64,000 bases of DNA, from the IMG/VR virus record IMGVR_UViG_3300048583_000100, positions 1 to 64,000 of that record; one strand, given 5' to 3'. The notes beneath the pieces were generated by a model, which was given only the letters and a program-made list of their open reading frames with translations, did not search any database and was not told the origin of the DNA. Source of the stretch: a virus. Position numbers and translations under genes: made by a program. Position 1 is the stretch's first letter. Each line of letters opens with the position of its first letter. This document shows positions 9,232 through 61,123 of the stretch, piece by piece.

Positions 9232-9256
9232 GGGGTTGATCTGATAGGTGATGCAG

Positions 9257-9264: not shown

Positions 9265-9281
9265 TTCTCCGGAACAAGGAA

Positions 9282-9303
9282 AAGGACCTGTTGCCAGGTC
9301 CTT
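9282..9303 (-). terminator. rho-independent terminator after RNA ligase
   Basis: AAGGACCTG pairs with CAGGTCCTT around a 4-base loop, and the minus strand continues with TTTTCC. It closes the RNA ligase transcript. Confidence 0.8.
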
Positions 9304-9328
9304 AATCTAGGCTCGCCCTACGGGCCAA

Positions 9329-28632: not shown

Positions 28633-28687
28633 TGAAAGGCGCGAAGTTTGAAGGACTTAAGCAGTAGACCGCACTGGTAGTTCGAGG

Positions 28688-38942: not shown

Positions 38943-38947
38943 GTAGT

Positions 38948-38977
38948 ATTGTATCCTGTTTTTGATTGGACGTAAAC
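38948..38977 (-). promoter_or_regulatory. early-type promoter of the topoisomerase cleaving subunit
   Basis: GTTTAC (38977-38972) and TACAAT (38953-38948) are 18 bp apart. The ATG follows 6 bases after the -10 box. Confidence 0.75.
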
Positions 38978-38981
38978 TGAA

Positions 38982-39185
38982 TCAGATTTTGATCAGGTTA
39001 CTCTGCCTGACGGCGTAAGTTTTGTTCTCGTCAGAGCACAGCATGACGAGAATCTTACCGCCTCTGGTCCTCTTGATTATCTGGCACTCCGCGCCGATGA
39101 ATGGACGAGAGTCGGCGTCAAAGTACAAATCGCCGCGGCTGTCGACAGTCACCCGGTCACCGGGCTCGAACTCTCCCGTCCTCAT
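38982..39185 (-). CDS. small KOW/SH3-like protein
   Basis: The 67-residue protein starts at an ATG overlapping the preceding stop. FEPGDRVTVDSRGDLYFDAD, GAECQIIKRTRGGKILVMLC and YAVRQSNLIKI fit a small beta-barrel such as KOW or SH3-like folds. It lies between the two topoisomerase subunits. Confidence 0.7.
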   Translation of the reverse strand: MRTGEFEPGDRVTVDSRGDLYFDADSRPFIGAECQIIKRTRGGKILVMLCSDENKTYAVRQSNLIKI

Positions 39186-45362: not shown

Positions 45363-46376
45363 ATGTTTACCTTCAAACAGTTCATCAGCGAGTCTACACT
45401 CCACGTGTTTGACATCGACGACACCCTATTCAAGACGTCTGCTAAGGTAGTCGTTAAGAAGGGCGGCAAAATCGTTCGCTCGCTGTCTTCGTCTGAATAC
45501 AACAAGGACAAGCTGAAGGACGGAGAAGTCTACGACTTCGATGAGTTCCGTTCTGCTAGGAAGTTCAAGGACGAGTCAGAGCCAATGCAGGACATGCTCG
45601 ATACCGTCAATCGTATCCACAACAAGATCAAGATGAACCTTACTCCTGGTTCCAAGATCATCATGAACACCGCTCGTAGCGATTTCGATGAGCGTGATAC
45701 GTTCCTTGGTAAGTTCAGAGATCACAAAGTGGACATCGACGATATCCACGTTCATCGTGCTGGCAATGTCAAGGGCGATCAACCTACTGCAGCCAAGAAG
45801 CTCGTATTCATCCGTGGCTACTTGAAGTCTGGCAAGTACAGCAACGTCATGATGTACGATGACAGCGAAAAGAATCTAGACCATTTCCTCGGTCTTCGCG
45901 AAGAGTTCCCAGACGTAAAATTCCACGCCTACCTTGTCAAGCACACCGGTAAGCTAGTGCAGTACAACTCAGCTGAGAAGGTTACCGAGGATGATGCCGA
46001 GCTGAAAGAAAAGTATCAGCGTTGGAAGAAGCTCGTCAACATGCCATCGCCTACACTCCAGAAGTTCATTGACTCGGACACTGGCAAAGATGCCGGCCTG
46101 TCTAGACAGGAAGCTTCGTCTTTGGGGATTAAGAGTGGGCGCGATTCAGCCCGTGCTATCCTAAGAATGCGCGCAAAGCCATTCTCCGAGTGGACAGCAG
46201 ATGACATCAAGTGGATGAATCGCCAAATCTCATTCGTAAGTCGAATGACTGGCAACCAAGGCCCGATGTTCCAGATGAAAGATGGAAAGAAGGTTCCTAC
46301 TCGTAAGCTTACGAGTCTCTGGATTTGGGGTAACGTGCCAGCGGGTCATTCACCTGGCACGTACCGCATCTTTTAA
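45363..46376 (+). CDS. HAD-family phosphatase with capsid-targeting leader
   Basis: The 337-residue protein begins MFTFKQFISESTLHVFDIDD. I8-S-E10 followed by Ser fits the head-protein leader (T4 internal proteins start MKTYQEFIAE). The HAD motif is D17-I-D19-D-T21, with NTARSDFDERDTFL and MMYDDSEKN as later motifs. From about residue 220 a second domain (SRQEASSLGIKSGRDSARAI, LTSLWIWGNVPAGHSPGTYR) is of unknown function and appears in other phage proteins. It could be an injected phosphatase for nucleotides or nucleic-acid ends. Confidence 0.8.
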   Translation: MFTFKQFISESTLHVFDIDDTLFKTSAKVVVKKGGKIVRSLSSSEYNKDKLKDGEVYDFDEFRSARKFKDESEPMQDMLDTVNRIHNKIKMNLTPGSKIIMNTARSDFDERDTFLGKFRDHKVDIDDIHVHRAGNVKGDQPTAAKKLVFIRGYLKSGKYSNVMMYDDSEKNLDHFLGLREEFPDVKFHAYLVKHTGKLVQYNSAEKVTEDDAELKEKYQRWKKLVNMPSPTLQKFIDSDTGKDAGLSRQEASSLGIKSGRDSARAILRMRAKPFSEWTADDIKWMNRQISFVSRMTGNQGPMFQMKDGKKVPTRKLTSLWIWGNVPAGHSPGTYRIF

Positions 46377-47121: not shown

Positions 47122-47616
47122 TCAACCTGCGAGTCGCTCCATGTCTCCGAGTTCAAGAAGCTGCTTGATGTAGAGACAGGCGTCCATCACTGCGCCCTCA
47201 CCACCCTTGTTAGGTGTCACGAAATTTGCAGCCTTGATAGCTTCAATTCGCGCATTCGCGGGTGCGATACCAATTGCGCAAGTCTTGATGCATGGCGCAT
47301 CGTAGTAGCCGTCGCCCATGAAAATGGTTTCGCGTGGATTCATCTGATGAATGAATTCAAGTCTGTCTTCTTCGGGTATAAACGTCAGCTCATATCCCAT
47401 GTCTGCACAAATTCTGCGATGTGTAATCTCGTAGCCTCTCTTATCGGCAGAGATAAACTGAATTCGAAGACGATTGCGAAGCATCTTCAATCCATCTGCA
47501 TCATGCGGGCCAAACACCTTCGCTAGCTTGCCAGCAGCAGTGTAAATGAACTGCCCGTTAGTCATGACACCATCGACATCAAGGATGAAGTTTTTCAGAT
47601 CTGCGGTTCTAAACAT
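47122..47616 (-). CDS. HAD phosphatase, KdsC-like
   Basis: The 164-residue protein starts MFRTADLKNFILDVDGVMTN with HAD motif DVDGVMT, followed by KVFGPHDADGLKMLRN and FISADKRGYEITHRRICADM, and later FMGDGYYDAPCIK. This is the KdsC type of 3-deoxy-octulosonate-phosphate phosphatase. It probably removes a phosphate from a sugar in a pathway with the nucleotidyltransferase-kinase gene that overlaps it by 8 bases. Confidence 0.85.
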   Translation of the reverse strand: MFRTADLKNFILDVDGVMTNGQFIYTAAGKLAKVFGPHDADGLKMLRNRLRIQFISADKRGYEITHRRICADMGYELTFIPEEDRLEFIHQMNPRETIFMGDGYYDAPCIKTCAIGIAPANARIEAIKAANFVTPNKGGEGAVMDACLYIKQLLELGDMERLAG

Positions 47617-49126
47617 TGGTGTTGACCTTGTGGTTGAGTCGTTCGAGAGCCAGACAGAATAGTAGCTTATCGAGTGGAGCATTGTGGAGAGGAGCCATGT
47701 TCAGGAAAATCAGCGTGACCATATCGTCAATGATCGGGCTTGGGAGCATGTGCTTGAATTTTTCGCGGAAGGCAATGAACTCTGGACGGCTTTCGAATCC
47801 AAACGAGCACGAGTCTCCGTCTTCAGACACCCAGAATTTGTGTTCGCGAATGTAATCGTAGTTGACTATCATGCCACCTACCAGCTTCGCAGCATCATAA
47901 TAGAGATCGCCGACTTTGATCTGCCCACCGAAATCCTGTCTCCAGTCGATGAGCGTAAACTTCTCACCATCGTAGATGACGTTGTCGAACTGAAGATCAC
48001 CATGGAAGAACACCGAACGAGTCTTCAGATCGGTGTTGAGCATTGCATTCCAATCGATGTGATGCTGAATGCCATTGTCGATGTCGACTTTTAGCACTCG
48101 CCCGTTGATGATCTTTGGATTGAATGTCGGGTACTTGTCTCGGAAAACCTGTAGACGACGCATCGTCTTGTCGTAGTAGAATTTGCGGCACAGCTCAGGA
48201 GTAAGCGTCTTGCTCTCATCCATCTGCCATACTTCGAATGCCATCCACTCCAAGAATTTCGTAAAGGTTTCGGCAGTTAGCGACTTGTAGAGCACATCAC
48301 CTGGCACAAAGTGATACGAGTACCATGGCCCACGGTGTTCAATGATCTTTGGAAAGAGATGCTCTCTGCCTTCGATTCGAGCAAGACGATTCATCGTGTT
48401 AGCTGGATTGCGGAACCACTTGATGACTCGATTGTTGACGATGTAGAGGAACTCGTCTGACTTGCTGTTGTCAAATGGTGAAGTCTCCTTAGAAAACTTC
48501 TCATAGCGCTCGTAGGTGCCAAGATCAACCCAAGGAAGCTCGATTGAATGTACCTCATTAGCAGTCCAACCGCTGGCGAGCTCGATACCGTTCAGACCGT
48601 TCCAAAAATGCTTTGTGTCCTTGATGTAGAAAACACCAGAGACAGCAATTCCAGAATCGAAATGCTGCTTGTCAACCACCGTGTCGATGCGCGTACCGTC
48701 TAGAGCTACGTTGCAGTACGCAGGAGAATCCATTGGATCAATGCGAGCAGTCGCTACATAGTTCTTATCTTCGGGAATGTCATTGAGCCCCTCGTAGTAT
48801 CCATCACAAGCGATCAGATAGAAGGGCCCGTCGATATGCGCACCTGCGGCGAGCAATGATTGGGCTGGACCAGCACCCGGCCCATCAAAGTTTTCGACGT
48901 ACGAGTAAAGGAAATTCCGTTCTGGGTGGGCGAGCGATAGATAGTCGCGAACTTGGTCGTGCTTGTACCCCACAGCAACCACGAACTTCGTGTCTTGGGG
49001 AAATTGCTCGATGATGTGCGAAATGATTGCCTTGCCTCGAATGGGAAGCAGCGTCTTGTTGATGACGGTACTGTACTTTCCCATTCGCGATCCCGTTCCT
49101 GCTGTGAGGAGGACCACTGTTTTCAT
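47609..49126 (-). CDS. bifunctional sugar nucleotidyltransferase and APH/choline-kinase-like protein
   Basis: The 505-residue protein is a fusion. Residues 1-230 form an NTP-transferase (TAGTGSRMGKYSTVINKTLL, then LIACDGYYEG). From about 250 a kinase-like domain follows with the APH/choline-kinase loop VFFHGDLQFDNVIYDG and TLIDWRQDFGGQ. Such pairs occur in LicC/LicA-type phosphocholine or amino-sugar activation. The late promoter is 34 bases upstream, so it would act in late modification. The start was set at MKTVVLLTAG, after AGGTC. The substrate is unknown. Confidence 0.85.
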   Translation of the reverse strand: MKTVVLLTAGTGSRMGKYSTVINKTLLPIRGKAIISHIIEQFPQDTKFVVAVGYKHDQVRDYLSLAHPERNFLYSYVENFDGPGAGPAQSLLAAGAHIDGPFYLIACDGYYEGLNDIPEDKNYVATARIDPMDSPAYCNVALDGTRIDTVVDKQHFDSGIAVSGVFYIKDTKHFWNGLNGIELASGWTANEVHSIELPWVDLGTYERYEKFSKETSPFDNSKSDEFLYIVNNRVIKWFRNPANTMNRLARIEGREHLFPKIIEHRGPWYSYHFVPGDVLYKSLTAETFTKFLEWMAFEVWQMDESKTLTPELCRKFYYDKTMRRLQVFRDKYPTFNPKIINGRVLKVDIDNGIQHHIDWNAMLNTDLKTRSVFFHGDLQFDNVIYDGEKFTLIDWRQDFGGQIKVGDLYYDAAKLVGGMIVNYDYIREHKFWVSEDGDSCSFGFESRPEFIAFREKFKHMLPSPIIDDMVTLIFLNMAPLHNAPLDKLLFCLALERLNHKVNTNV

Positions 49127-49160
49127 TTGATGACCTGATAAGATGCCCATGGTATGCAAG

Positions 49161-50597: not shown

Positions 50598-51068
50598 TCA
50601 GAAGGTGGCAGCGATCTTGCTGCAGAGGTCCTTGATGTCCAGCTTCTCAGGAGCCTTGATGCCGGCCAGGAGGGCCTGGTGGTTGAGCTTCTCGCGGTTG
50701 GCTTCGGCGGTAGCGATGCCCTTACCCTTGGTCACCGAGGCGTTCCAGATGGGACCGAAGGAGAAGCGGACGCCGTTGGCGGCAGCAACCTTGATGCGGA
50801 CACCCTTGGGGCTGGACTTGATCTTGAGCTTCTTCTCGGCGGCAGGAGCGGCCATGTCGGCGACCAGCGCGGTGAGGGGAGCATCACCTTCAGCTTCGAC
50901 CATCGCAGCAGCTTCCTTGACCATGCGGACGAACTGCATGTTGTCCAGGGAGACCACGAAGTTGTTCACGAGCGGGAACTTCTGGGCAATCCGACGGAGC
51001 TTGTCCATCGCGATCGGATTGGATTCGTCCAGGGCAAGACCGGTGATTTTCGAGATTTCCTTGATCAT
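50598..51068 (-). CDS. first gene of an early operon; domain shared with 49259-49639
   Basis: The 156-residue protein begins MIKEISKITGLALDESNPIA. The middle is Ala/Lys-rich and the C-terminal 50 residues (SFGPIWNASVTKGKGIATAE...DLCSKIAATF) match the smaller paralogue downstream. AAGGAA precedes the ATG. It lies about 60 bases below the first iteron-type promoter. Confidence 0.75.
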   Translation of the reverse strand: MIKEISKITGLALDESNPIAMDKLRRIAQKFPLVNNFVVSLDNMQFVRMVKEAAAMVEAEGDAPLTALVADMAAPAAEKKLKIKSSPKGVRIKVAAANGVRFSFGPIWNASVTKGKGIATAEANREKLNHQALLAGIKAPEKLDIKDLCSKIAATF

Positions 51069-51130: not shown

Positions 51131-51159
51131 ATTATACACTAACCTGCGGAGATGTACAC
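51131..51159 (-). promoter_or_regulatory. iteron-type early promoter 1
   Basis: GTGTAC (51159-51154) lies 17 bp from TATAAT (51136-51131) on the minus strand. Four copies of the 22-bp repeat start 24 bp above the -35, so the promoter has an upstream regulatory array. Confidence 0.8.
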
Positions 51160-51183
51160 AGTTTTGTTCGGTTATTTTCACTT

Positions 51184-51331
51184 CTAAGTGATTGATCCGT
51201 ATAGGCTTTCTGGAGCGTATCCCTAAGTGATTGATCCGTAAAGGAAACTATTTTCAGTTAGTTTCACTCCCTAAGTGATTGATCCGTATAGGCTTTCTGG
51301 AGTGCTTCCCTAAGTGATTGATCCGTATAGG
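51184..51331 (+). repeat. four-copy 22-bp repeat array 1
   Basis: Copies start at 51184, 51223, 51271 and 51310 (spacing 39, 48 and 39) and read CTAAGTGATTGATCCGTATA plus GG on the plus strand; copy 2 has one substitution. A second short element (GGCTTTCTGGAG) follows copies 1 and 3 and in part copy 4. The array ends 24 bp above a promoter that runs on the minus strand, in the opposite orientation to arrays 2 and 3. Confidence 0.9.
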
Positions 51332-51410
51332 CTTTCTGTAGGCTAGAAACCGTGACCCCAGAGGTCCCCTGGGTCTGGGTGCACCCAGAGAACCTATGTG
51401 ATAGTCTATC

Positions 51411-51785
51411 TTAGGGTTCTACAACCGTGCACCCAGAGGGGAGTCCGAGACCGAAGCTGTCAGGTCCTAGGATTTCGTATCCGCGGACAGGAGCCGCAGC
51501 GGTCCTGAGCAGCTGGTATCCAAGGATGAGCTCGGCGTCTAGAAGACCCTGCCCAATCTGCTCGAGGTATTTCTGGTTGCCCTCGCGAGCAACGATGATC
51601 TTGTTGCTGTGAGCATGGTCGCTCTTGGCAATCTGGATGTCGCCACCTTGGTGCTCGATCATCAGAATGTAGAGCTCTTCAACGTGTACGGTCATGTCGG
51701 GTCCTTTCATCATTGCGCCACAGTTAGCACAGGGGCCGCGGTGACGGATTATGTTTCCACAGCCAGGGCATCCAGGCTCGCTCAT
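51411..51785 (-). CDS. zinc-ribbon early protein with possible internal start
   Basis: The 124-residue protein starts MSEPGCPGCGNIIRHRGPCA with C6, C9, C19 and C22 as a zinc ribbon. The start overlaps the preceding stop by ATGA. At codon 31 a second ATG follows AAAGGACCCGAC, a strong ribosome site, so a shorter product lacking the ribbon may also be made. The remaining sequence (GNQKYLEQIGQGLLDAELIL) is alpha-helical. The function is unknown. Confidence 0.7.
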   Translation of the reverse strand: MSEPGCPGCGNIIRHRGPCANCGAMMKGPDMTVHVEELYILMIEHQGGDIQIAKSDHAHSNKIIVAREGNQKYLEQIGQGLLDAELILGYQLLRTAAAPVRGYEILGPDSFGLGLPSGCTVVEP

Positions 51786-52129
51786 ATAGATAGCTCGTAG
51801 TTGGGGTTGCCGAGGTTTTCCAGAGCAGCCTTCCGTTCCTTCTTGGTCCACCTTCTGCCCCAGGCATTCCAGTACGTGCCGAAATGCGGGTTGTACTTTG
51901 CAGCCCACCGCTTAAGGACGCGTAGGGAGTCCATTCGAACGTATCGACCCTTTCGAATGGTGCCCTTGTAGTCAGAGAGCACGAGCTCATCCGGCTGGTA
52001 GACACTCACGTGAGAGCCGCCACAGACAACAACGAGGCGACCATCAGGAAGGATGCGCCAGATTCGGCCGTAAAGAATCCAGCCGTCAGCTTGCTCCTTC
52101 TTGGAGAAGACGATGTCGTTACGCTTCAT
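51782..52129 (-). CDS. small basic early protein
   Basis: The 115-residue protein has a beta-rich N-terminus (DGWILYGRIWRILPDGRLVV), a Lys/Arg/Trp-rich C-terminal part (YWNAWGRRWTKKERKAALEN), and overlaps both neighbours. No family is recognised. Confidence 0.7.
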   Translation of the reverse strand: MKRNDIVFSKKEQADGWILYGRIWRILPDGRLVVVCGGSHVSVYQPDELVLSDYKGTIRKGRYVRMDSLRVLKRWAAKYNPHFGTYWNAWGRRWTKKERKAALENLGNPNYELSI

Positions 52130-52244
52130 CTTGCTCCTCCATGATGCGTTCGATGTCGAGCTTGAGAATCACGAACTCGCCACCCAGAATGGGGTCTGGA
52201 ACCAGCTTGACTGGGATGCCGTTGACTGTCTCAAACTGCTTCAT
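52119..52244 (-). CDS. very small protein (41 aa)
   Basis: This 41-codon frame starts MKQFETVNGIPVKLVPDPIL and ends in IMEEQDEA. It overlaps the upstream gene by 14 bases and the downstream one by 11. The codon pattern is coding-like although short. Confidence 0.55.
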   Translation of the reverse strand: MKQFETVNGIPVKLVPDPILGGEFVILKLDIERIMEEQDEA

Positions 52245-52491
52245 CGGCCCGCTCGCCCTTGACATGCCATGAGATATAGAAGCGATCCAGTTGATAGCTG
52301 CCCGGCTTCTTTCTGAATTTGAAATTGCCCTTGACGAGGACTTGCTCGATGGCATCGGCGAAATACTTCTCAACGTCGAATACCAGGCTGAGCTTGCCGT
52401 CCTCTGCTAGCCTCTTGATAGCCTTTACCAGACTATTCGTCTTCGCCTGTACGGCTATTGCATGTGCGGTTGCGGAGTCGATGGTGCCCAT
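52231..52491 (-). CDS. small early protein, paralogue of the next gene
   Basis: The 86-residue protein has IAVQAKTNSLVKAIKRLAED and FADAIEQVLVKGNFKFRKKP. The order of helix, FxxAIxQxL and a following strand matches the 85-aa protein encoded directly upstream (EIISQTLSQNGYKYTVAEKA), so the two look like a tandem duplication. The function is unknown. Confidence 0.7.
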   Translation of the reverse strand: MGTIDSATAHAIAVQAKTNSLVKAIKRLAEDGKLSLVFDVEKYFADAIEQVLVKGNFKFRKKPGSYQLDRFYISWHVKGERADEAV

Positions 52492-52493
52492 GT

Positions 52494-52751
52494 TTATTCC
52501 TTTTCACTGAAGGAGAAGTCGATGGTATATTCCACGACCCTTGGAGCCTTTTCTGCTACCGTGTACTTGTAGCCGTTTTGACTTAAAGTTTGCGAGATGA
52601 TTTCCCGGAATGCTTCGGTTGTTTCAAACACTGCATAGAGGAAACCTTTCTGCGCACTTTCGTCAATTGCCGTCTTTAATCGTTCGATGTGTGACCACTG
52701 GGCCATAGCGTATGCATCTCTTGCCTGGCGAAATGCTTGGTTCATGTTCAT
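52494..52751 (-). CDS. small early protein, paralogue of the previous gene
   Basis: The 85-residue protein starts MNMNQAFRQARDAYAMAQWS. It shares the helix and strand layout of the 86-aa protein next to it. Two bases separate the pair. The function is unknown. Confidence 0.7.
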   Translation of the reverse strand: MNMNQAFRQARDAYAMAQWSHIERLKTAIDESAQKGFLYAVFETTEAFREIISQTLSQNGYKYTVAEKAPRVVEYTIDFSFSEKE

Positions 52752-52754
52752 TCC

Positions 52755-53174
52755 TTATGGCGCGAGGTTGTCGTTCCTGAAGCGGGCCTTCTCGACGAAC
52801 TCGGACGGTACTTCGAGGACCGCATTTTCGTACTTGTAGACCCGCAGATGTTCCGGCGGTCCGCCAAAGCCCCAGCCCATGTCGTCATCGGAGCTCTGGA
52901 TGGTGTCGTACTGATTCGTGCGACGCTTGAGCGTCACGTTCAGCACCCAGACTTCACTGTCGCCAGTGCTGCGAATCGGGGTAACCTTCTCGAGCTCCCA
53001 GCCGTCCTTGCGAAGGTACTTGCCAGTCAGCTCTTGCGTCTGGCTCCACCACGCGGTGCCGAGAACGTAGACTTGTGAGCCGAAGCGCAGCTTGAGCTCT
53101 TCGATCAGCATCTGGTAGCTTCCCCAGTTGGTGCTGAGAGCGCATGCGTACATCTTACCACGCGACATATTCAT
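52755..53174 (-). CDS. early unknown protein
   Basis: The 139-residue protein has a beta-alpha start (GKMYACALSTNWGSYQMLIE), a Trp-rich middle (GTAWWSQTQELTGKYLRKDG) and an acidic, Gly-rich linker. It couples to the preceding 54-codon gene by ATGA. No family is recognised. Confidence 0.7.
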   Translation of the reverse strand: MNMSRGKMYACALSTNWGSYQMLIEELKLRFGSQVYVLGTAWWSQTQELTGKYLRKDGWELEKVTPIRSTGDSEVWVLNVTLKRRTNQYDTIQSSDDDMGWGFGGPPEHLRVYKYENAVLEVPSEFVEKARFRNDNLAP

Positions 53175-53335
53175 GACTGCGACTCCTGCTCCAGTTCGCG
53201 CTGGTGAATCATGGCGGCCATCTTGAGGACGGTCTGCTCAGTGATGTAGAGCTCCTTGCCATTGGGAGCCTTGAGAAGGAAAGCGCCGCCGATGTCAGTG
53301 ATCTTCAGCTGGTCGGGAACTCGTTCAGTGTTCAT
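53171..53335 (-). CDS. very small protein (54 aa)
   Basis: This 54-codon frame (MNTERVPDQLKITDIGGAFL) overlaps both neighbours by ATGA. It ends in a Gln/Glu-rich helix (IHQRELEQESQS). It is coupled with an 84-aa gene upstream, and the coding-like composition makes it likely real. Confidence 0.65.
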   Translation of the reverse strand: MNTERVPDQLKITDIGGAFLLKAPNGKELYITEQTVLKMAAMIHQRELEQESQS

Positions 53336-53586
53336 GCGACCTCCAACTTCAGGGGCGGCATCGCTGCAGCCTGGACATTCAGTGCGTGAGCGAGAGCATT
53401 GGCCCGCTCACGCTGCTTGTCTTGCGAGTACAGACCCACCGGGAATGCGGCGACCATGCGATCCTTCGGAACGGTGTCGCCGTCATGGTCACATCGACGA
53501 GCAACGGAGAACTCGACGGGTGCTCTGGCACTGCTCCAACCGGTGTAGCCAGTGCGAGTATACACGATGTACTCTTCCATGTTCAT
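53332..53586 (-). CDS. small early protein
   Basis: The 84-residue protein has MNMEEYIVYTRTGYTGWSSA and an alpha-helical C-terminal half (ERANALAHALNVQAAAMPPL). It follows the ATPase gene by about 23 bases in the early operon below promoter 2. No family is recognised. Confidence 0.65.
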   Translation of the reverse strand: MNMEEYIVYTRTGYTGWSSARAPVEFSVARRCDHDGDTVPKDRMVAAFPVGLYSQDKQRERANALAHALNVQAAAMPPLKLEVA

Positions 53587-53609
53587 TGTCCGAACTCCTT
53601 GAGGTTGGG

Positions 53610-54584
53610 TCAGATGGCCGTCAGCAGGTATTCGGCTCGGCGCTTCCAGTCACCGCCTCGGGCAGAGACCTTGGTGACCGCGATGAGGGTGCGGAGGCTG
53701 AGCTCCTTGGCCTGGTCCTTGAGCTCCTCGAGGAAGGTCAGAGCTTCACGCTTCACCTTCGGCTCGTACTCGGGCAGGAAGTCGTCCTGCAGGATGATCG
53801 CTTCCATGCGCTCGATCTTCTGAGCAGTGTTCATGGAGAGGTCGACGCAGATGGCGCGGGACCGGACGGCCTGGTCGATCTTGAAGATGGGGAGGTTCGA
53901 GATGAAGATCACGCCGCCTTCGAACTGGAAGGAGCGGGGCAGATCGTCGTCACCGAAACCTTCGGCGTTCCAGGAGATGATGCGCTTGTCGTAGGAATCG
54001 AGGGCGCCCTTGAGAAGGTTCAGAGCAACCGGATCGCGGAGGATCGAGTCACAGTCGTCGAAGACGATCGTGCGGTAGCGATTCTCGAAGAGGGTGCGGT
54101 AGAGACCCTTGGCCGTCGAGTAGCCCTTGACGACGCTGTAGAGATTGCGCTGCTTCGAGCGGGGCAGTTCCTCGCCGATGCCGGCGGATTCCATGAACTC
54201 CGACATGTCCTTCATGCCTGCGCTGCGGAGCGCCTTGTTCACGGTGTGGGTCTTGCCGAGGCCGCCTTCACCAGTCACGAGGAGGGAAGCACTCGTGCGA
54301 TCAGCGACCATGTTCACGAAGTCGGTCAGGAAGTCGAAGCGTTCGTTGATGCCGAAGCGTTCGACCTTTTCGAGCTTTCCGGTGGAGACGTCGAGCTGAG
54401 TCTCGCCGACTTCCTTCACCTTGGTAACGCCAGCATCTGCAGCTTTGCGGCACCGGCCGCTCGTGATCATGTTGATCACGTAGTCTTTGTTCGGAGAAGC
54501 TGCGAGGACCTTGCCTGCGTACATGGCGGTCCACTTGTTCGACCGCGTGTCCAGGGAGAGGAGGGCAACATTCGACATATTCAT
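53610..54584 (-). CDS. early AAA+ ATPase, paralogue of the packaged-type ATPase
   Basis: The 324-residue protein has Walker A GEGGLGKT (residues 105-112), Walker B IVFDDCDS (DD at 176-177), sensor 1 GVIFISNLP (N230) and an Arg pair in AVRSRAICVD. These motifs line up with the protein at 59636-61123 in order and spacing. The first 90 residues are a variable domain. It is first in the operon below promoter 2, which carries four upstream repeats, so it should be made early. Its target is unknown; P-loop ATPases of this type remodel proteins or nucleic-acid complexes. Confidence 0.88.
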   Translation of the reverse strand: MNMSNVALLSLDTRSNKWTAMYAGKVLAASPNKDYVINMITSGRCRKAADAGVTKVKEVGETQLDVSTGKLEKVERFGINERFDFLTDFVNMVADRTSASLLVTGEGGLGKTHTVNKALRSAGMKDMSEFMESAGIGEELPRSKQRNLYSVVKGYSTAKGLYRTLFENRYRTIVFDDCDSILRDPVALNLLKGALDSYDKRIISWNAEGFGDDDLPRSFQFEGGVIFISNLPIFKIDQAVRSRAICVDLSMNTAQKIERMEAIILQDDFLPEYEPKVKREALTFLEELKDQAKELSLRTLIAVTKVSARGGDWKRRAEYLLTAI

Positions 54585-54624
54585 CGTGCTCCAGAAAGGA
54601 ATTCGTTATTCAATCTACTGGACT

Positions 54625-54654
54625 ATTCTATCAAGTCCTGAGGAGAATGTACAC
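54625..54654 (-). promoter_or_regulatory. iteron-type early promoter 2
   Basis: GTGTAC (54654-54649) lies 18 bp from TAGAAT (54630-54625). Four copies of the 22-bp repeat start 20 bp above the -35. Confidence 0.8.
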
Positions 54655-54674
54655 AGTTCCGGAGATTTATTTAA

Positions 54675-54813
54675 CCTATACGGATCAATCACTTAGGGAC
54701 TGTCTCCGGAGATACCTATACGGATCAATCACTTAGAGCCTGAAATCTTATTCCTTTACGGATCAATCACTTAGGGACTGTCTCCAGAAAAGGTAACGGA
54801 ATCAATCACTTAG
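54675..54813 (-). repeat. four-copy 22-bp repeat array 2
   Basis: Copies start at 54675, 54715, 54753 and 54792 (spacing 40, 38 and 39) and read CTAAGTGATTGATCCGTATA plus GG on the minus strand. Copies 3 and 4 carry substitutions. The element GGACTGTCTCC recurs between copies. Copy 4 takes part in a 13-bp inverted repeat with 54818-54830. Confidence 0.9.
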
Positions 54814-54830
54814 GGCATGATTGATTCCGT
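54796..54830. repeat. 13-bp inverted repeat built from repeat copy 4
   Basis: ACGGAATCAATCA (54796-54808) is the reverse complement of TGATTGATTCCGT (54818-54830) around a 9-base loop. On the minus strand it follows the secreted-protein gene and could serve as its terminator, though the T-run is poor. Confidence 0.6.
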
Positions 54831-54851
54831 CTATTCCTTATCTATAGGGGC

Positions 54852-55178
54852 TTACGGACTGACGGGTTTCGATTCCTCGAAATCGCGAACCACGGACTTG
54901 GCATCGAACTCAATGCTCTCAACCCGGATCGTTCCCTCTTTAGCATAGCGAACCATTTTTCCGCTCTTGTCCCAGACGACCGTAAAGCGTGGGTCATTGT
55001 CAGTAGCGAACCAGCATCCCGTCTCCACGGTCTTTGCGTCAGCAACCAAATCAGGAACATCTACGACCAGCTCGGCGTAGTATCCCTCTTGGCATTCGCC
55101 AACGGTGTCGTGAAGCCGAACTTCACCACCCTGGGCTGCCTTTGACATAATTACTGCAGCGAGCATCAGGCTCAACAT
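54852..55178 (-). CDS. probable secreted protein
   Basis: The 108-residue protein starts MLSLMLAAVIMSKAAQGGEV, a short signal-peptide-like segment after GAGGAG. Two cysteines follow (GECQEGYY and TGCWFAT) that could form a disulfide in the periplasm. The start was chosen by the ribosome site; longer in-frame starts overlap the upstream gene. The function is unknown. Confidence 0.65.
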   Translation of the reverse strand: MLSLMLAAVIMSKAAQGGEVRLHDTVGECQEGYYAELVVDVPDLVADAKTVETGCWFATDNDPRFTVVWDKSGKMVRYAKEGTIRVESIEFDAKSVVRDFEESKPVSP

Positions 55179-55191
55179 TTTGAATCTCCTC

Positions 55192-55629
55192 TTATTTTTG
55201 GGGCGGTATGTATGCCAGTGGTTTGTCGTCGTACTCATCTCCGAGAGACGCATTTTCCCAGTGCACGCAGATTAGACCCTGTCGTTCAAGTGAAGCGGTC
55301 GCGACGAGCGACATGAATTTTGAAAGGTACCGATTCAGCTCCTCATGACTCGAGCAGACGCAGCCTTCGGCTCGCGTAAGCATCTCAGTCAGCAGGACCA
55401 TCTGATAGGCAGCTTTATGCTTGTCCTCACTGCCTACATTGACAGTATTTACATAATCGCAGAGCTGGGCTAGATCAGCGTTTGACAGCATCTCGAAGAA
55501 GCCCTTCATCGTGATGTACTGCTGGTCCTTCAGCTTCAGAGCCAAAATGCGAGTCAGTGGCAGCAGGTCCTTGTTGGCAGCGATCTTGTCGTACTGTATG
55601 ACGAGCCCTTTCGGGTAAACACGATCCAT
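55192..55629 (-). CDS. early unknown protein
   Basis: The 145-residue protein has an alpha-helical body (LTRILALKLKDQQYITMKGF, NADLAQLCDYVNTVNVGSED) and no recognised domain. It lies in the operon below promoter 3, upstream of the secreted protein. Confidence 0.7.
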   Translation of the reverse strand: MDRVYPKGLVIQYDKIAANKDLLPLTRILALKLKDQQYITMKGFFEMLSNADLAQLCDYVNTVNVGSEDKHKAAYQMVLLTEMLTRAEGCVCSSHEELNRYLSKFMSLVATASLERQGLICVHWENASLGDEYDDKPLAYIPPQK

Positions 55630-55639
55630 GAAAGCTCCT

Positions 55640-55948
55640 TTAGTTGTCGATTTCGAGGAACTGCTCCGCAGCTTCGAAAGTAAAGTGGCGCACGCGTCGT
55701 TCAGTCACCCTTTCATTTCCACCATTGAAGAACACGGTGCGTCGAACGGTACCACGAATCTTGCGGGCGGACCAGTCGACGCAAATCTTTTCCAGGGGAC
55801 CAGCATGGTACATGATGCCGAAGCCTGTGGTGGCAGCAAGGTCTTCCTTCGTAGGATTGAAGATGTAACGTCGCTCTCCACCATCCAAGCAAAGCTCCAG
55901 ATGCTGAACGACGGTGAATCGCGGACAAAGCGGCTCTTGGAACTTCAT
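55640..55948 (-). CDS. early unknown protein
   Basis: The 102-residue protein is rich in Arg and beta-type segments (RRYIFNPTKEDLAATTGFGI, RGTVRRTVFFNGGNERVTER). No family is recognised. It is one base from the 74-aa gene. Confidence 0.7.
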   Translation of the reverse strand: MKFQEPLCPRFTVVQHLELCLDGGERRYIFNPTKEDLAATTGFGIMYHAGPLEKICVDWSARKIRGTVRRTVFFNGGNERVTERRVRHFTFEAAEQFLEIDN

Positions 55949-55949
55949 C

Positions 55950-56174
55950 TTACACCTCGTACTCGCGGAACTTCATCCACCAGAACTTGTTGGTGTTGAA
56001 GAAGTCGATGGCTTCATGGTGCTGATTCTTGATCTTGATCAGCATCGTGCCCTTCGTCAGGGAGAATCGACGAGCATTGGACGCATGTATCGCTGCGGAC
56101 TGCAGCGCCTCGTCTAGCGACTGAAGACGCTGAATAAATTTGGTCGAAGAGAGCCAGCGCTGAAAAATGTTCAT
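55950..56174 (-). CDS. small early protein
   Basis: The 74-residue protein (MNIFQRWLSSTKFIQRLQSL) is basic with an aromatic end (FWWMKFREYEV). It couples to the upstream membrane gene by ATGA. The function is unknown. Confidence 0.65.
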   Translation of the reverse strand: MNIFQRWLSSTKFIQRLQSLDEALQSAAIHASNARRFSLTKGTMLIKIKNQHHEAIDFFNTNKFWWMKFREYEV

Positions 56175-56386
56175 GCTTTATCTCCGCGTACCCACTTCAG
56201 CATCTTGCTGCTGTACGGCTTGATGGCTCGCTCGGCCCATTCATCGCCCAGCAGAATGATCTCAGCGAAATTCTTGAGCAACCACAGAATGCCCGCAAAG
56301 ATCAACATGAGTAGTGCGACGGGCAGCAAAACCCACCAACGCCAGTTAAGGATGGTAAGCTGAAGAATGGATTTTTGGGTGCTCAT
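56171..56386 (-). CDS. small single-pass membrane protein
   Basis: The 71-residue protein starts MSTQKSILQLTILNWRWWVL and has one membrane segment (WVLLPVALLMLIFAGILWLL), then a charged C-terminal part. The ATG overlaps the previous stop (ATGA). A longer frame reaching 56782 lies largely antisense to other genes and is not used. Confidence 0.7.
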   Translation of the reverse strand: MSTQKSILQLTILNWRWWVLLPVALLMLIFAGILWLLKNFAEIILLGDEWAERAIKPYSSKMLKWVRGDKA

Positions 56387-56625
56387 GCGAAGATTTCCTC
56401 TTGGGCCAGTACACATTGACCGCACTCGACGATCGAGTCGTCTTCCTCGAAAGTAAAGGCGAGGTGACCGGGCAGATGCGGATGACCGACGATGCTGTAC
56501 GTGGTGTTGATTCGAAGACCAGACTTGAACGGCTTCGGAGCCTTGCCACCAGTGCGACGCTTGACCACTCGCTTTCCGAGCATGTCGATGAGGGTGTCTA
56601 CGTCGTACTGTTGAAGAGTGTCCAT
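56383..56625 (-). CDS. small early protein
   Basis: The 80-residue protein has an alpha-helical start (MDTLQQYDVDTLIDMLGKRV) and a beta part with SIVECGQCVLAQEE, including a C-G-Q-C pair. No family is recognised. Confidence 0.65.
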   Translation of the reverse strand: MDTLQQYDVDTLIDMLGKRVVKRRTGGKAPKPFKSGLRINTTYSIVGHPHLPGHLAFTFEEDDSIVECGQCVLAQEEIFA

Positions 56626-56633
56626 GTCCTGCC

Positions 56634-56807
56634 TCAGTCGTCGTTATCGTTGGACCAGCGAGACGGCTTCTGACGCTTGCGGTCAGTCTCTTCAACGGGT
56701 GGCGCGTGCTTTTCGCGGCGCTTGTCTCGCAGCTCTTTGTCTTTCGACTTCTTGCTGCGGAACTCGTTGTAGTCTTCGTCATCGAAATCGCGGAAGCGGG
56801 TGCCCAT
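56634..56807 (-). CDS. very small highly charged protein (57 aa)
   Basis: This 57-codon frame starts MGTRFRDFDDEDYNEFRSKK after AAGGACAAG. It is rich in Asp, Glu, Lys and Arg and probably disordered. Such short charged proteins can bind host RNA polymerase or nucleic acids; that is speculation. Confidence 0.65.
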   Translation of the reverse strand: MGTRFRDFDDEDYNEFRSKKSKDKELRDKRREKHAPPVEETDRKRQKPSRWSNDNDD

Positions 56808-56833
56808 TTTCTTGTCCTTGGTGCGGGTTGGTG

Positions 56834-56995
56834 TTACTCGGAAATTTGAATCCAGCCCCACTCAGTTGCTTTGGGGTCTGGGTTGCAGTTGAAGTCCTTG
56901 AACATCTTACGGGCCGTAGCTCGGTCCAATCCTTGGACTTCACGCCGAGGTTCACTTTCGAACTCAACGTAGAACGTATACTTGGCGGTGTGCAT
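56834..56995 (-). CDS. very small early protein (53 aa)
   Basis: The frame starts MHTAKYTFYVEFESEPRREV and has a strand-helix-strand pattern (GLDRATARKMFKDFNCNPD). It overlaps the preceding gene by 32 bases. An upstream in-frame ATG is less likely because it lies deep in that gene. Confidence 0.6.
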   Translation of the reverse strand: MHTAKYTFYVEFESEPRREVQGLDRATARKMFKDFNCNPDPKATEWGWIQISE

Positions 56996-57203
56996 AGGTG
57001 GTGATCGCCATCTGCTTGTTGTGGGCACGAGCGTAGCCAGGCATTGCCTTCTCGACCTTCTTGAAGTACTTGCGGTCGAAAACGTAACGCTGACCGTGGA
57101 AGGTATTGAACACGAACTCAGCGATGAAGGGAACGCCGAGTTCCTTCAGAACGGCCGGGACGTCGTAGCGCTTGGGAAGAGAGAAGCCGAATTCGTTCAT
57201 CAT
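56964..57203 (-). CDS. small early protein
   Basis: The 79-residue protein starts at one of two adjacent ATG codons, 7 bases after the GIY-YIG gene stop (MMNEFGFSLPKRYDVPAVLK). No clear ribosome site is seen, so it may be translated by re-initiation. RYVFDRKYFKKVEKAMPGYA is basic. No family is recognised. Confidence 0.6.
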   Translation of the reverse strand: MMNEFGFSLPKRYDVPAVLKELGVPFIAEFVFNTFHGQRYVFDRKYFKKVEKAMPGYARAHNKQMAITTYAHRQVYVLR

Positions 57204-57210
57204 GAGATAT

Positions 57211-57543
57211 TTACACCGAGTTGAGGGTGAACTGACCAGACTTGCGGAGAGCCGTTTCGGCGGCGTGGGCATCAGCCTTACCACGAACGAACTGCAGAAT
57301 TTCTGGAACGAAGGCATCGGGACCGTGCTTGCGAATGGACTTGCAGAGGTTCCACTGCTTACCCTGGTTCTTGGCTCGACCGACGTGGCGGCTGAAGCGA
57401 GCTGCGAGGGTTTCCTTTCCGCTGCGATCCACACAGACCGCGATGCCGACATACTGCTCGTCGGTCTTGATGTTCGTGATCACGTACACGATGTGCTTGC
57501 GGTCTGAACGACGCTTGCGCTTGGTAAGTTTGTTCTTGATCAT
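57211..57543 (-). CDS. GIY-YIG nuclease-like early protein
   Basis: The 110-residue protein has IVYVITNIKTDEQYVGIAVC as the GIY-YIG-like core and ARFSRHVGRAKNQGKQWNLC with a later Arg and Glu. It is the first gene below promoter 3. Its ATG lies 7 bases after the -10 box, so the message may be leaderless. It may be a small free-standing nuclease acting on host DNA, or a homing-type remnant. Confidence 0.75.
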   Translation of the reverse strand: MIKNKLTKRKRRSDRKHIVYVITNIKTDEQYVGIAVCVDRSGKETLAARFSRHVGRAKNQGKQWNLCKSIRKHGPDAFVPEILQFVRGKADAHAAETALRKSGQFTLNSV

Positions 57544-57549
57544 GTGACT

Positions 57550-57578
57550 ATTCTATCACAACCTGAGCAAATGTACAC
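57550..57578 (-). promoter_or_regulatory. iteron-type early promoter 3
   Basis: GTGTAC (57578-57573) lies 17 bp from TAGAAT (57555-57550). Four repeat copies start 20 bp above the -35. Confidence 0.8.
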
Positions 57579-57598
57579 AGTCCCGTGAAAATAGTTTT

Positions 57599-57728
57599 GC
57601 TATACGGATCAATCACTTAGGGATCATCAAACCGAAAGCCTTTAGAAATCAATCACTTAGATAGCGAAAATAGTTTTCGTATACGGATCAATCACTTAGG
57701 GACTTATCTATACGGATCAATCACTTAG
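57599..57728 (-). repeat. four-copy 22-bp repeat array 3
   Basis: Copies start at 57599, 57639, 57678 and 57707 (spacing 40, 39 and 29) in the minus orientation. Copy 2 is degenerate in its promoter-proximal half. The element AAAATAGTTTT recurs between copies and, inverted, in array 1. Confidence 0.9.
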
Positions 57729-57745: not shown

Positions 57746-58768
57746 TTATAGCAGCTTGGCGATCTCGGCTGACTTAGCTCGTAGCATGTCCTGGGTCTCG
57801 GCTGCTTTCTGCTTGGCTCGGTCGGTCTGGGCCTTGTCAAATTTGCTGCTCTTGGCCAAGTCCTCATTCTTCTTGATGTACGTTTCGCGGACCTTGGAAA
57901 GGAAATCCTCTTGCGAAGAGATGTGCTTGAGCAGTCCCTTACTGTACATGTCGTTGAGTGCGAAGGATTCTCCAAGACCCTTGATTGCTGATGCGAGATC
58001 GGCAATCTTGATTTCGGATTTCGTAATACCCGGGTGCGCTGCTAGACCCTTGCTGATCTTGACCTTACCTTCTCCATCTCTTTCGTGGAAAGCTTTCAGG
58101 ATATCAGTTGCGAAGGTGTCGATGCTTGTAGACAGGGTGCGAAGTTTGTCGGCCTTTAAGGTGCGGAAGCTCACCACTTCACCGCCCTTCTCTTTCATCT
58201 GTACACCCGAGTCGCCAATGCTGAGATTGAGAACTTCTGCGAGTGATGAGTAAAGGAAGCCGATGAGTGCACCCTTGACACCGTGTTCAGGAGTCATGCG
58301 ATGCGAAGTCCAATCTTCGAGGTCAGTGAATGACTTGACGAGATCGATCTGAACAGCCTGATCACCGACCTGGAATACAAGAGCCGCACCCTTGAAGGAT
58401 GTGCCAGCAGCCAGATATGAAAGATCGTTGTCGTCTATGTACTCGTCAAGCTCTTCACGATAGAGACGCCAGTTGTCTGAGCCTTTCATTCCCTCAATAC
58501 GAGGAACGATGAACATCACATCGATGTCACCGTACTCTTTGTCTGGGTTAGACTTGAGATCGCGTTCGATGTATGCAGAGGAACCGACTGGCTTACCAAA
58601 TGCGACAGGCGCAAGGTTCTTCTTTGCAAGATGAGCATTGAAGTCCTTCTCGAATCTAGGAAGCAGTGCGAGTGCCTTCTTAGCAAGAGCCGGAGTCAGA
58701 ATAACGTCTTGCGTAAGGGTGCTAGACCAGCCACCCTCAGCTAGGAACTCTTTGAATGATCGCTTCAC
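57746..58768 (-). CDS. packaged-type Pol-beta nucleotidyltransferase
   Basis: The 340-residue protein starts MKRSFKEFLAEGGWSSTLTQ. Its L9-A-E11 followed by Gly is nearly the T4 head-protein leader (MKTYQEFIAE). The catalytic core is G62-S-S with D81-I-D83 (GDIDVMFIVP) and D142 (VQIDLV), the Pol-beta-type nucleotidyltransferase pattern also found in tRNA- and toxin-type enzymes. A late promoter is 52 bases upstream. The C-terminal 100 residues are helical and Lys-rich. An injected enzyme that adds nucleotides to host molecules is the best inference. Confidence 0.85.
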   Translation of the reverse strand: MKRSFKEFLAEGGWSSTLTQDVILTPALAKKALALLPRFEKDFNAHLAKKNLAPVAFGKPVGSSAYIERDLKSNPDKEYGDIDVMFIVPRIEGMKGSDNWRLYREELDEYIDDNDLSYLAAGTSFKGAALVFQVGDQAVQIDLVKSFTDLEDWTSHRMTPEHGVKGALIGFLYSSLAEVLNLSIGDSGVQMKEKGGEVVSFRTLKADKLRTLSTSIDTFATDILKAFHERDGEGKVKISKGLAAHPGITKSEIKIADLASAIKGLGESFALNDMYSKGLLKHISSQEDFLSKVRETYIKKNEDLAKSSKFDKAQTDRAKQKAAETQDMLRAKSAEIAKLL

Positions 58769-59583
58769 GTTACATACCTAAAATTCGGAGAGCGAGAACC
58801 ATTCCTGCCCGTACCTAAACTATTTACGAGGTGCTTTACCGATTCGAAGATAGTGACACCGTCTACAGTGCAAGCCCTTTTGTTCTTTGACATATCCTTT
58901 GACTTGCGCATGTTCTGCTTTGCTTCTTCAGAATGCTTCTTACCAAGTCGGACCTGTCGAATTGATTCTTTGTGAGCCGTAGAAAATGTCGGTAAGACTT
59001 TCGACTTTCCTTTTGTGGCTTTTGAAATATTGTGACGTGTTTCGGGAGTTCTGGTTTGTCCAGTGCCACCCTCAGAAATCTTCTTCTTGTGTTCTTCAGT
59101 TAGCACTTTACCCGTCAGCGCATTTCGAATTTTTTCACGAGCTTCAGGGGTATGCGTAGTCCAGGTTTTTGCTCTAGAAGCGGCTATCTTGTCGTACCAC
59201 TCTTTTGTGCGAACATATTTCTTGGACGCTGCTGAAAGCTTTGCACTTGTTTCTGCTTTTGTCGGTGGGCGATCATAGTAGCCTTCTCCACCGGGCCCAC
59301 AATTCATGCAAGCGGGATCTTTTCTAAGCTCAACAGTAATGAGCTCTTTTTCTTTATCTGATGCTTCTTGTCGAGAAGAAAATTCGAATAGCACCTGAGA
59401 TACATGCCTGTCTTTACCGTATTTTCTGATGGACTTTCTCAGTCGCATACCGCTGCCCAAATAACCATCATTCAAGTTATCAGTGCTGTGCATCCCGATA
59501 TAAAAGGCACCTGTTTCAATGCAAACTGTCTTATAGACAATATGGTGCTTTCTATTTGACGCTCTAACGTACTTCTTTTCCAT
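58765..59583 (-). CDS. GIY-YIG homing endonuclease
   Basis: The 272-residue protein has a GIY-YIG core (HIVYKTVCIETGAFYIGMHS) with later R and E. Helix-turn-helix NUMOD-like repeats follow (PEAREKIRNALTGK; SEEAKQNMRKSKDMSKNKRA) and an end similar to NUMOD1 (TIFESVKHLVNSLGTGRNGS). These modules are typical of phage homing endonucleases (SegA-like). It is inserted between a perfect TATAAATA late promoter and the nucleotidyltransferase gene, to which it is coupled by ATGA. It looks more AT-rich than its neighbours, which fits recent entry. Confidence 0.88.
   Translation of the reverse strand: MEKKYVRASNRKHHIVYKTVCIETGAFYIGMHSTDNLNDGYLGSGMRLRKSIRKYGKDRHVSQVLFEFSSRQEASDKEKELITVELRKDPACMNCGPGGEGYYDRPPTKAETSAKLSAASKKYVRTKEWYDKIAASRAKTWTTHTPEAREKIRNALTGKVLTEEHKKKISEGGTGQTRTPETRHNISKATKGKSKVLPTFSTAHKESIRQVRLGKKHSEEAKQNMRKSKDMSKNKRACTVDGVTIFESVKHLVNSLGTGRNGSRSPNFRYVT
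58821..58828 (-). promoter_or_regulatory. late promoter CGTAAATA
   Basis: It lies inside the homing endonuclease gene, 52 bases upstream of the nucleotidyltransferase start, so the nucleotidyltransferase keeps its own late promoter. Confidence 0.6.
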
Positions 59584-59635: not shown

Positions 59636-61123
59636 TCATGCATACAACTCCACGAGTTTTTCCCAATTTGGAGCTCCTGATGCAGCAAGGTTAAGAGCAC
59701 GTACGAGCTTACGAAGGGATACGTCACCCTTACGCTTAGAGGTCTTGACGACCTTCAGAACATTCTCACGCTCATCCTTCGAAAGGGTCATGTCGCCTTC
59801 GAGACGGATGTCATGCAGGATTCTTTCCATGTGCTCGAACATTTCGTCGTCGGTTGGATCGACGTTGATGACGAATGCACGGGTACGAAGAGCTCCGTCT
59901 GGGTCAAGCTTCGAAAGCGGAAGGTTCGAGATGAAGATGATGCGACCCTTAAAGTCGAAGTACTTAGGAGCCATGGTGGCATCGTCTTCGTACTGCTCTG
60001 GGTCTTCACTCTCTGGGTCGAAGATGAACGAGGAGCGCTTGTTCCAAACCATTTTACGGCTCTTCTTAGTGTCGGTGGCAGCCTTGATGAGGTTGCGAGC
60101 GTCGACGTCAGCAAGAGCTCCGTCCGAGTCATCGAACAGAATGATGTCGTTGCGGTGGTGATAGAGCAGCGTGTAGACACCTGCAGCAGAAGCCGAACCG
60201 GTGTTCTTGAAGTAGCCATCGCCGTCAGTAAGACCATTAGCCTCGAGCACACGCTCAACAGTCTGAGTCTTACCAGTACCACCCTTACCAGCTACGAAGA
60301 GAGCGTTAAACGATCCCTTGATGACAGCTTGGACAAGACCCGCAAGGTGATCTAGGGTCTCGAGATATGGAGTGCGCTCGGCACCAGCCTTATCCTTACC
60401 TTCGATCTCCTCTTCCTGAGAAGACTTGAAGTAGGTTTCCTTTGTGCCACCAGCAGTCACCTCGACAACGCCAGCCTTAGAAAGGATAGAGTCCTTGAGT
60501 GACTCGATCTTTGCATCAGGGTCCAGCGTGACTCGCTTACCGTTGATGCCGAACTGTTCCTTGAACTTGTCGTAGATGGTATCGAAGACACCGGCATGGA
60601 CGATGTGGTAACGACCGATGAAGTCAGAACGAGTCATCGACTTGCCGCTCTTCAGCTGGCCGAGGAAGTCAACGAGTGCAGTTTCAGCTGTAAAGTCGTC
60701 GCGCTTTGCTTCAGTGACGATCGACTCATTCATGGCCTCTGTAGCAGAGACTGGGAATGCGAACTCCTTACCAACAGATGGGTTCTCAAGCTTCGAAACT
60801 ACGAGTGGTAGAATCTGTACGAGGGAGACGCCCTTAGAACGAATGGAGTAGTTTGGATCGTGCGACTTACCGGTGAAAATGTCGATCGATGCAAGCGAAC
60901 CTGGTTTTCCGACTGCACCTTCGCTCGCCCAATTGAATCGAACGCAGCGAGTTGAACCCGACTGAACGTAGCGAACACCGTAGCCGCTACCTTCAGAGTT
61001 CTTGAAGTGTTCGATGCCTGGGATTCGGATGAACTTGACACCCAACTTCTTCTCAATGTACGAGATCATGGTTGGAAGAGCTAGACCGGTGGCCTTAGCT
61101 TCGTGCAGCTGACTTAGTTTCAT
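59636..61123 (-). CDS. AAA+ ATPase with capsid-targeting leader
   Basis: The 495-residue protein starts MKLSQLHEAKATGLALPTMI; L6-H-E8 followed by Ala fits the head-protein leader. Walker A is GKGGTGKT (279-286), Walker B is IILFDDSDG (DD at 331-332) and the sensor segment is GRIIFISNLPLS. The ATPase part matches the early protein at 53610-54584. The first 250 residues are an extra region with a segment similar to small phage DNA-binding domains (DDFTAETALVDFLGQLKSGK). A late promoter is 35 bases upstream. A packaged ATPase is unusual. Confidence 0.85.
   Translation of the reverse strand: MKLSQLHEAKATGLALPTMISYIEKKLGVKFIRIPGIEHFKNSEGSGYGVRYVQSGSTRCVRFNWASEGAVGKPGSLASIDIFTGKSHDPNYSIRSKGVSLVQILPLVVSKLENPSVGKEFAFPVSATEAMNESIVTEAKRDDFTAETALVDFLGQLKSGKSMTRSDFIGRYHIVHAGVFDTIYDKFKEQFGINGKRVTLDPDAKIESLKDSILSKAGVVEVTAGGTKETYFKSSQEEEIEGKDKAGAERTPYLETLDHLAGLVQAVIKGSFNALFVAGKGGTGKTQTVERVLEANGLTDGDGYFKNTGSASAAGVYTLLYHHRNDIILFDDSDGALADVDARNLIKAATDTKKSRKMVWNKRSSFIFDPESEDPEQYEDDATMAPKYFDFKGRIIFISNLPLSKLDPDGALRTRAFVINVDPTDDEMFEHMERILHDIRLEGDMTLSKDERENVLKVVKTSKRKGDVSLRKLVRALNLAASGAPNWEKLVELYA

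Follow-up and report, generated by a model that had tools for sequence, protein, structure and literature searches.

Bases 1-64000 of the 97,427-base virus record IMGVR_UViG_3300048583_000100 (the window) hold twelve copies of a 22-bp repeat, arranged as three arrays of four, and each array lies upstream of an early promoter. By sequence class the repeats are sites of the integration host factor (IHF) type. With a probability of about 0.74, we propose that host IHF binds the arrays, bends the upstream DNA onto RNA polymerase and boosts the early promoters. That the protein is IHF, that it activates rather than represses and that the timing is early we infer from the DNA sequence.

A 13-nt core (CTAAGTGATTGAT) was exact in 12 of 12 copies, and its 12 occurrences in the whole record were all inside the three arrays. 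Ten copies fit a 20-mer at 0-1 mismatch (none did in shuffled sequence); the remaining two (54792-54813 and 57639-57660) keep the core exactly and are diverged elsewhere. The original prediction, made from the sequence of the stretch before this analysis, had described three four-copy arrays with 38-40 bp spacing and single exceptions of 48 and 29 bp, and this was borne out, with measured spacings of 39/48/39 bp in array 1, 40/38/39 bp in array 2 and 40/39/29 bp in array 3. Array 1 is inverted relative to arrays 2 and 3, again as predicted (22-mer on the plus vs the minus strand). The GG said to trail each copy, however, was absent from some copies.

Read on the opposite strand, the core is ATCAA-TCAC-TTAG, which fits the IHF consensus WATCARNNNNTTR. 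This consensus has been given as WATCAAnnnnTTR or TAAnnnnTTGATW, WATCAANNNNTTR (PMC10380432). ATCAA-TCAC-TTA was present in all twelve copies, with A/T at the first consensus position in two. To define a wider class of such sites, viral contigs were scanned for paired AAATCAANNNNTTA; at least 185 sites were obtained, which share a strong A-tract lying 9-13 bp 5' of the core (-13 to -9) and a preference for NNAC at the four free positions (N4). The lambda attP site H1 reads AATCAACTACTTAG, and the A-tract of lambda H' lies at an offset matching this class. The window copies carry AAA or TTTT/AT-rich runs at the A-tract position, weaker in some. A weight matrix trained on 160 sites from unrelated viral contigs, none of them from this phage, scored the 12 window copies at 12.0-27.6 bits. 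Elsewhere in the 97 kb two places reached at least 10 bits, 12.2 (at 25781) and 11.8, with shuffles giving 0-5 hits; 11 of the 12 copies outrank the rest of the 97 kb, and the twelfth, at 12.0 bits, trails the hit at 25781 by no more than 0.2 bits. The best score, 27.6 bits, went to the copy least like the 22-mer (57639-57660, array 3), a near-perfect general IHF site, and the second best to the other strongly diverged copy.

The arrays had originally been attributed to a phage-specific binding protein. A phage-encoded, phage-specific activator or repressor would suit the near identity of the copies over 20-22 bp and the invariant N4, which IHF does not require; this invariance could reflect recent duplication or extra specificity. 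However, the same class of site recurs in many unrelated phages, early promoters act before phage proteins exist, the top IHF scores belong to the two diverged copies, in which the IHF core is intact, and the variant found in Xanthomonas phage X1 (see below) differs at IHF-tolerant positions. A search for HU/IHF genes (PF00216) detected none in the record, a companion contig (G001), the complete genomes of X1 and Stenotrophomonas phage DLP6 or ten other array-bearing records. A phage-specific binding protein was thus not supported. We consider a phage regulator quite unlikely.

The three promoters (P1-P3) have a GTGTAC box paired with TATAAT or TAGAAT, and the record holds no further early-type promoter like them. 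The arrays start ~20-24 nt upstream of GTGTAC, at the predicted 20-24 bp above the -35 in all three cases, and the farthest sites lie ~190 bp upstream. The early -35 of T4 is GTTTAC, and RB49, RB43 and Aeh1 favour G at the third base, giving GTGTAC (PMC1524935). The sequences of P1-P3 follow the T4-like early pattern (-35 GTTTAC/GTGTAC, 17 +/- 1 bp, TATAAT-like -10), with the -35 in the form favoured by RB49, RB43 and Aeh1, and on this basis we class them as T4-like early promoters. A MotA-dependent middle promoter was rejected, as the TGCTTtA box 11-13 bp before the -10 was absent from the P1-P3 sequences. The view of the arrays as regulatory elements of T4-like early promoters, different from MotA boxes, was supported. 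The promoters head operons, as had been claimed, but the description of these as operons of small early genes did not hold throughout, with operon 2 opening with a 324-aa AAA ATPase. The GTGTAC-type promoter alone is common in viral contigs, where the upstream regions as a set showed no IHF-site enrichment, and the arrays are therefore not a general companion of that promoter pattern.

Helical phase was measured as the distance from the IHF pseudo-dyad (index 0.5, between the A-tract and TTA) to the first base of the -10. We take the IHF contacts to be roughly symmetric about this point, partly on the basis of the IHF-H' crystal duplex. For the promoter-nearest site the distance was 51.5 bp in array 3, 52.5 bp in array 2 and 61.5 bp in array 1, and 51.5 bp at both arrays of the companion contig. 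Array 1 and one companion array (L009) point the opposite way with the phase unchanged. The corresponding distances in X1 were 30.5, 30.5, 30.5 and 31.5 bp, two turns closer, with 4/4 within 1 bp of the window phase. Among non-redundant strong-consensus promoters of unrelated contigs, 22 of 29 were within 2 bp of the window phase (11 expected, P = 4e-5), and the same 29 gave R = 0.50 in a Rayleigh test at 10.5 bp (P = 7e-4). Judged from these distances, site and promoter stand in the helical phase expected of an IHF-activated promoter. The fixed phase is limited to the promoter-nearest site, as the other array sites drift by ~2-3 bp per step. The original prediction had equated the spacing with four turns and placed all sites on one face of the DNA; a step of 38-40 bp is ~3.7 turns, so the upstream sites rotate away and the one-face argument fails. 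The rotational argument therefore does not apply across the array but does apply between the nearest site and its promoter.

The phase bears on two further explanations in which IHF is the bound protein. IHF might shield the promoters from host silencing by H-NS/MvaT-like proteins without direct activation of polymerase, and the AT-rich upstream DNA would fit this, as would the Mu early promoter, where IHF reportedly protects against such silencing (van Ulsen 1996, cited in PMC6070864). The strict helical phase between site and -10 suits direct bending, however, and would be unneeded for blocking a silencer, leaving this explanation unlikely. Alternatively, IHF at the arrays could repress or time the early promoters, by shut-off or by release through titration on replicated DNA. 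An X1 pseudo-dyad 30.5 bp from the -10 is close enough that IHF could occlude polymerase, and many sites per genome could titrate 5,000-10,000 IHF molecules (PMC10380432), but occlusion needs no phasing, and arrays reaching ~190 bp upstream fit wrapping better than blocking. We find repression or timing rather improbable. The arrays could also be replication-origin iterons that chance to adjoin promoters, given that they are clustered ~22-bp repeats and that origins of the T4 type are generally held to use nearby promoters. Against this, an array is tied at fixed phase to 5/5 such early promoters (record plus the parts of the companion contig read), DLP6 has 14 paired sites before gene clusters, and no initiator-type gene was seen among the annotated neighbours examined, which together make iterons highly improbable.

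Judged by sequence and position, the record is a piece of a T4-like phage. X1 was the best-matching named relative in the search used, and is the top named match of the topoisomerase large subunit (57.8% identity). It carries 13 copies of AATCAGACACTTAC at two or fewer mismatches, 12 of them intergenic and 1 overlapping a gene end. This variant keeps ATCA and TTA and is changed relative to the window at the R position and N4, that is, only at positions where IHF tolerates change. Four X1 copies directly precede TTGTCC-N17/18-TAATAT or TATAAT promoters. DLP6 (KU682439.2), a cultured Stenotrophomonas phage of the T4 superfamily, has 31 WATCARNNACTTA sites; among them are 14 pairs, with a spacing of 25-26 bp, that precede gene clusters, 13 of the 14 with a recognised CTTTAC-N17-TATAAT-type promoter downstream. 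Measured to the -35, the nearest DLP6 sites fell into one-turn classes of 16.5-17.5, 26.5-27.5 and 37.5 bp (13/13; R = 0.97, Rayleigh P = 5e-6). X1 infects Xanthomonas and DLP6 Stenotrophomonas, both proteobacteria, in which IHF is assumed to be present. The published description of DLP6 lists 25 'phage promoters' detected with PHIRE, of which 22 stand in twos ahead of gene clusters (PMC5349666). Very probably these are paired IHF-type sites upstream of separate CTTTAC/TATAAT promoters.

The companion contig (loci L009 and L010) contains two further arrays before two further GTGTAC-type promoters, one of the arrays preceding a helicase gene with Dda-like similarity. The parts of this contig that were read have no genes in common with the record, hold complementary single-copy genes and show a tetranucleotide correlation of 0.96 with most of the record. 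The contig thus probably belongs to the same genome or to a sister genome, and its arrays, which at first looked like independent conservation, were not counted as such. A megablast of the region and a blastn of array 1 against annotated phages returned no array relative. Weak matches to VR7 and VR25 (E ~0.7) were set aside since they covered the promoter stretch of the query only. The search for the 13-mer pair in bacterial genome contigs gave a single match, a core pair at 31 bp in a Burkholderiales contig (L129, 5686-5726).

Loci from other contigs held 147 clusters of at least two sites among the matches listed. Sigma-70 promoters of at least 10 bits were found within ~130 bp in 45 of 128 gene-facing flanks vs 9 antisense, and 46 flanks beat all 20 shuffles vs ~6 expected. 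By PHROG matches, the array contigs span different kinds of phage. The compared loci were chosen for holding an IHF-like motif, so they provide no measure of how frequent the layout is. One locus (L225) has six sites at 37-38 bp. In an unrelated 168-kb phage record (L367, 8595-8895), a TTGACA/TATGCT promoter is preceded by eight IHF-type sites in tandem, spaced 38-39 bp. Matches to other repeats, at least one of them coding-like, were set aside (L130, L136, L139, L140, L143), as were triple-site matches inside open reading frames (ORFs), which mostly look like coding repeats. The original prediction had named repeats at random positions without promoters in relatives as the contrary outcome; in X1, DLP6 and the unrelated contigs the sites were instead mostly intergenic and promoter-associated.

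Several observations weigh against the binding of activating IHF. Ten of the 12 copies carry G rather than A/T at the first consensus position, and the N4 is invariant (TCAC) although unspecified by IHF. One step of array 3, at 29 bp, falls short of the length of an IHF footprint, and the 25-bp DLP6 pairs are likewise closer than a footprint. The pseudo-dyad was chosen from motif symmetry and the IHF-H' crystal duplex; when its position was scanned, coherence peaked one base away, and there was another optimum at a distance of half a period. The DLP6 site closest to the promoter misses the common phase by half a turn, and pooling its distances with the others abolishes that phase; the upstream partner is in phase (13/13 within 1.5 bp), but this was noticed post hoc. 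T4, pf16, Acj9 and other gammaproteobacterial T4-like phages lack such site pairs, and the trait is therefore not general. The controls on the unrelated loci, finally, address the link between site and promoter only, given how those loci were chosen.

An E. coli cell contains 5,000-10,000 IHF molecules (PMC10380432). IS5 uses an IHF site plus A-tracts to activate glpFK, in an arrangement that tolerates a 10-bp but not a 5-bp insertion (PMC2753651). Because IHF is abundant and already present, and because a phased bend is a known activator, as in IS5, immediate stimulation of the early promoters appears the most likely function of the arrays. Each repeat would be a binding site for host IHF, and four sites about one footprint apart (38-40 bp) would form an upstream platform at each of the three early promoters. 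IHF that the cell contains when infection begins would bind, bend the DNA sharply and bring the upstream region round onto RNA polymerase, and the takeover operons would be transcribed more strongly from the outset with no need of a phage activator. The site nearest the promoter would be held at a fixed helical phase in either orientation, and the extra sites would add occupancy and wrapping.

Table 1. Positions of the promoters, repeat arrays and selected neighbouring features in the window.
Feature	Position	Strand	Description
Promoter P1	51131..51160	-	TGTGTACA...TATAAT (GTGTAC, 17 bp, TATAAT)
Promoter P2	54625..54655	-	TGTGTACA...TGATAGAAT
Promoter P3	57550..57579	-	TGTGTACA...TGATAGAAT
Array 1	51184..51331	22-mer on +; WATCAA reads on -	A-tract side away from promoter
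Array 1 22-mers	51184-51205, 51223-51244, 51271-51292, 51310-51331		Matrix scores 13.8-17.5 bits
Array 2	54675..54813	22-mer on -; site strand +	A-tract side toward promoter
Array 2 22-mers	54675-54696, 54715-54736, 54753-54774, 54792-54813		Last copy diverged outside core, 19.3 bits
Array 3	57599..57728	22-mer on -; site strand +	
Array 3 22-mers	57599-57620, 57639-57660, 57678-57699, 57707-57728		
Operon 1 first ORF	50598..51068	-	156 aa, without family match
Operon 2 first gene	53610..54584	-	324-aa AAA ATPase, phrog_1250, T4 nrdC.10-like
Operon 3 first ORF	57211..57543	-	110 aa, weak homing-endonuclease-type similarity
Perfect 13-bp inverted repeat	54796..54830		ACGGAATCAATCA / TGATTGATTCCGT; includes part of promoter-distal site of array 2
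DNA polymerase-like ORF	328-3033		Assigned by sequence and position
Topoisomerase II subunits	37548-41170		Assigned by sequence and position

Other features of the window are given in Table 1 and here. The inverted repeat at array 2 may form a terminator-like minus-strand hairpin where operon 3 ends. The nrdC.10-like AAA ATPase family phrog_1250 has two copies in 7 kb (53610-54584 and 59636-61123), the second with a long N-terminal extension, and a homing-endonuclease gene (phrog_314, NUMOD3 motif) lies at 58765-59583, ~1 kb upstream of array 3. At 47609-49159 there is a fused gene with a MobA-like nucleotidyltransferase and a phosphotransferase fold (APH); this is family similarity only, with no evidence of drug resistance. 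Predicted proteins at 25414-25809, 26251-26679, 45363-46376, 57746-58768 and 59636-61123 have alike short N-termini (MKLSQ..., ..FKQFISES, ..FKEFLAEGG), which are perhaps capsid-targeting signals as in T4. A 24-nt element, C-A/T-GCTTAAGTCCTTCAAACTTCGC, is found at 28641-28664 (-) and at 84388 (-) of the record and, in weaker form, at 45331 (+); the companion contig has it at L009 985 (+). It is not an IHF site, and at least two copies are near hairpin or terminator-like sequence.

In the usual view of T4-like early promoters, strong host-type boxes and an A-rich UP element suffice; here an extra module made up of sites for a host DNA-bending protein, by sequence class, recurs. No description of tandem IHF arrays at T4-like early promoters was found in the literature searched, subscription journals being outside its scope. 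The recurrence of the layout in unrelated phages suggests a widespread, largely unnoticed borrowing of a host protein for the first genes. More tentatively, these promoters may represent a widespread, unrecognised class in virulent phages of proteobacteria, in which early sigma-70 promoters have 2-8 tandem upstream IHF sites, spaced by about a footprint and with the nearest phase-locked, forming an IHF-wrapped platform that wins polymerase at once; once phage genomes have multiplied, their IHF sites may exceed the host's supply of IHF and so turn the promoters down without a repressor. The distances from pseudo-dyad to -10 can be offered as a rule of ~31, 41, 51.5 and 62 bp, and the layout offers an explanation for the DLP6 repeats published as 'phage promoters'. 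It also makes host IHF a candidate determinant of how environmental phages take over the cell and of their host range.

That IHF can stimulate phage promoters is already known. Giladi in 1998 is said to have described it at lambda pL, and the lambda pL and Mu early promoters reportedly resemble the present ones, being early phage promoters of the sigma-70 type with a site for host IHF upstream. Those cases reportedly involve one or two IHF sites in temperate phages, whereas here four tandem sites, about one footprint apart, stand at each of three promoters in a T4-like phage, and the module is repeated along the genome. IS5-glpFK is alike in its upstream IHF site and A-tracts, its sigma-70 promoter and the preservation of activity by a 10-bp but not a 5-bp insertion, and differs in having a single IHF site at about -215 plus a permanent bend, carried on an insertion sequence (PMC2753651). 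The T4 middle promoter with its MotA box is also a phage promoter with an upstream regulator box, but the MotA box is a GCTT motif at -30 in place of the -35, whereas the present promoters retain a -35 and have their sites 50-190 bp upstream of the -10. The early promoters of T4, RB49, RB43 and Aeh1 share the GTTTAC/GTGTAC -35 and TATAAT-type -10; the available part of their description gives an A-rich UP-like stretch at -40 to -44 in the T4-like early consensus and mentions no upstream repeat array (PMC1524935). The DLP6 'phage promoters' are also similar, being repeats in twos before gene clusters, where we find 14 pairs of AATCAACGACTTA-type sites. The DLP6 authors read the repeats as the promoters themselves (PMC5349666), whereas we read them as IHF-type sites upstream of separate promoters, set in 25-bp pairs in DLP6 and in 39-bp arrays in the window phage.

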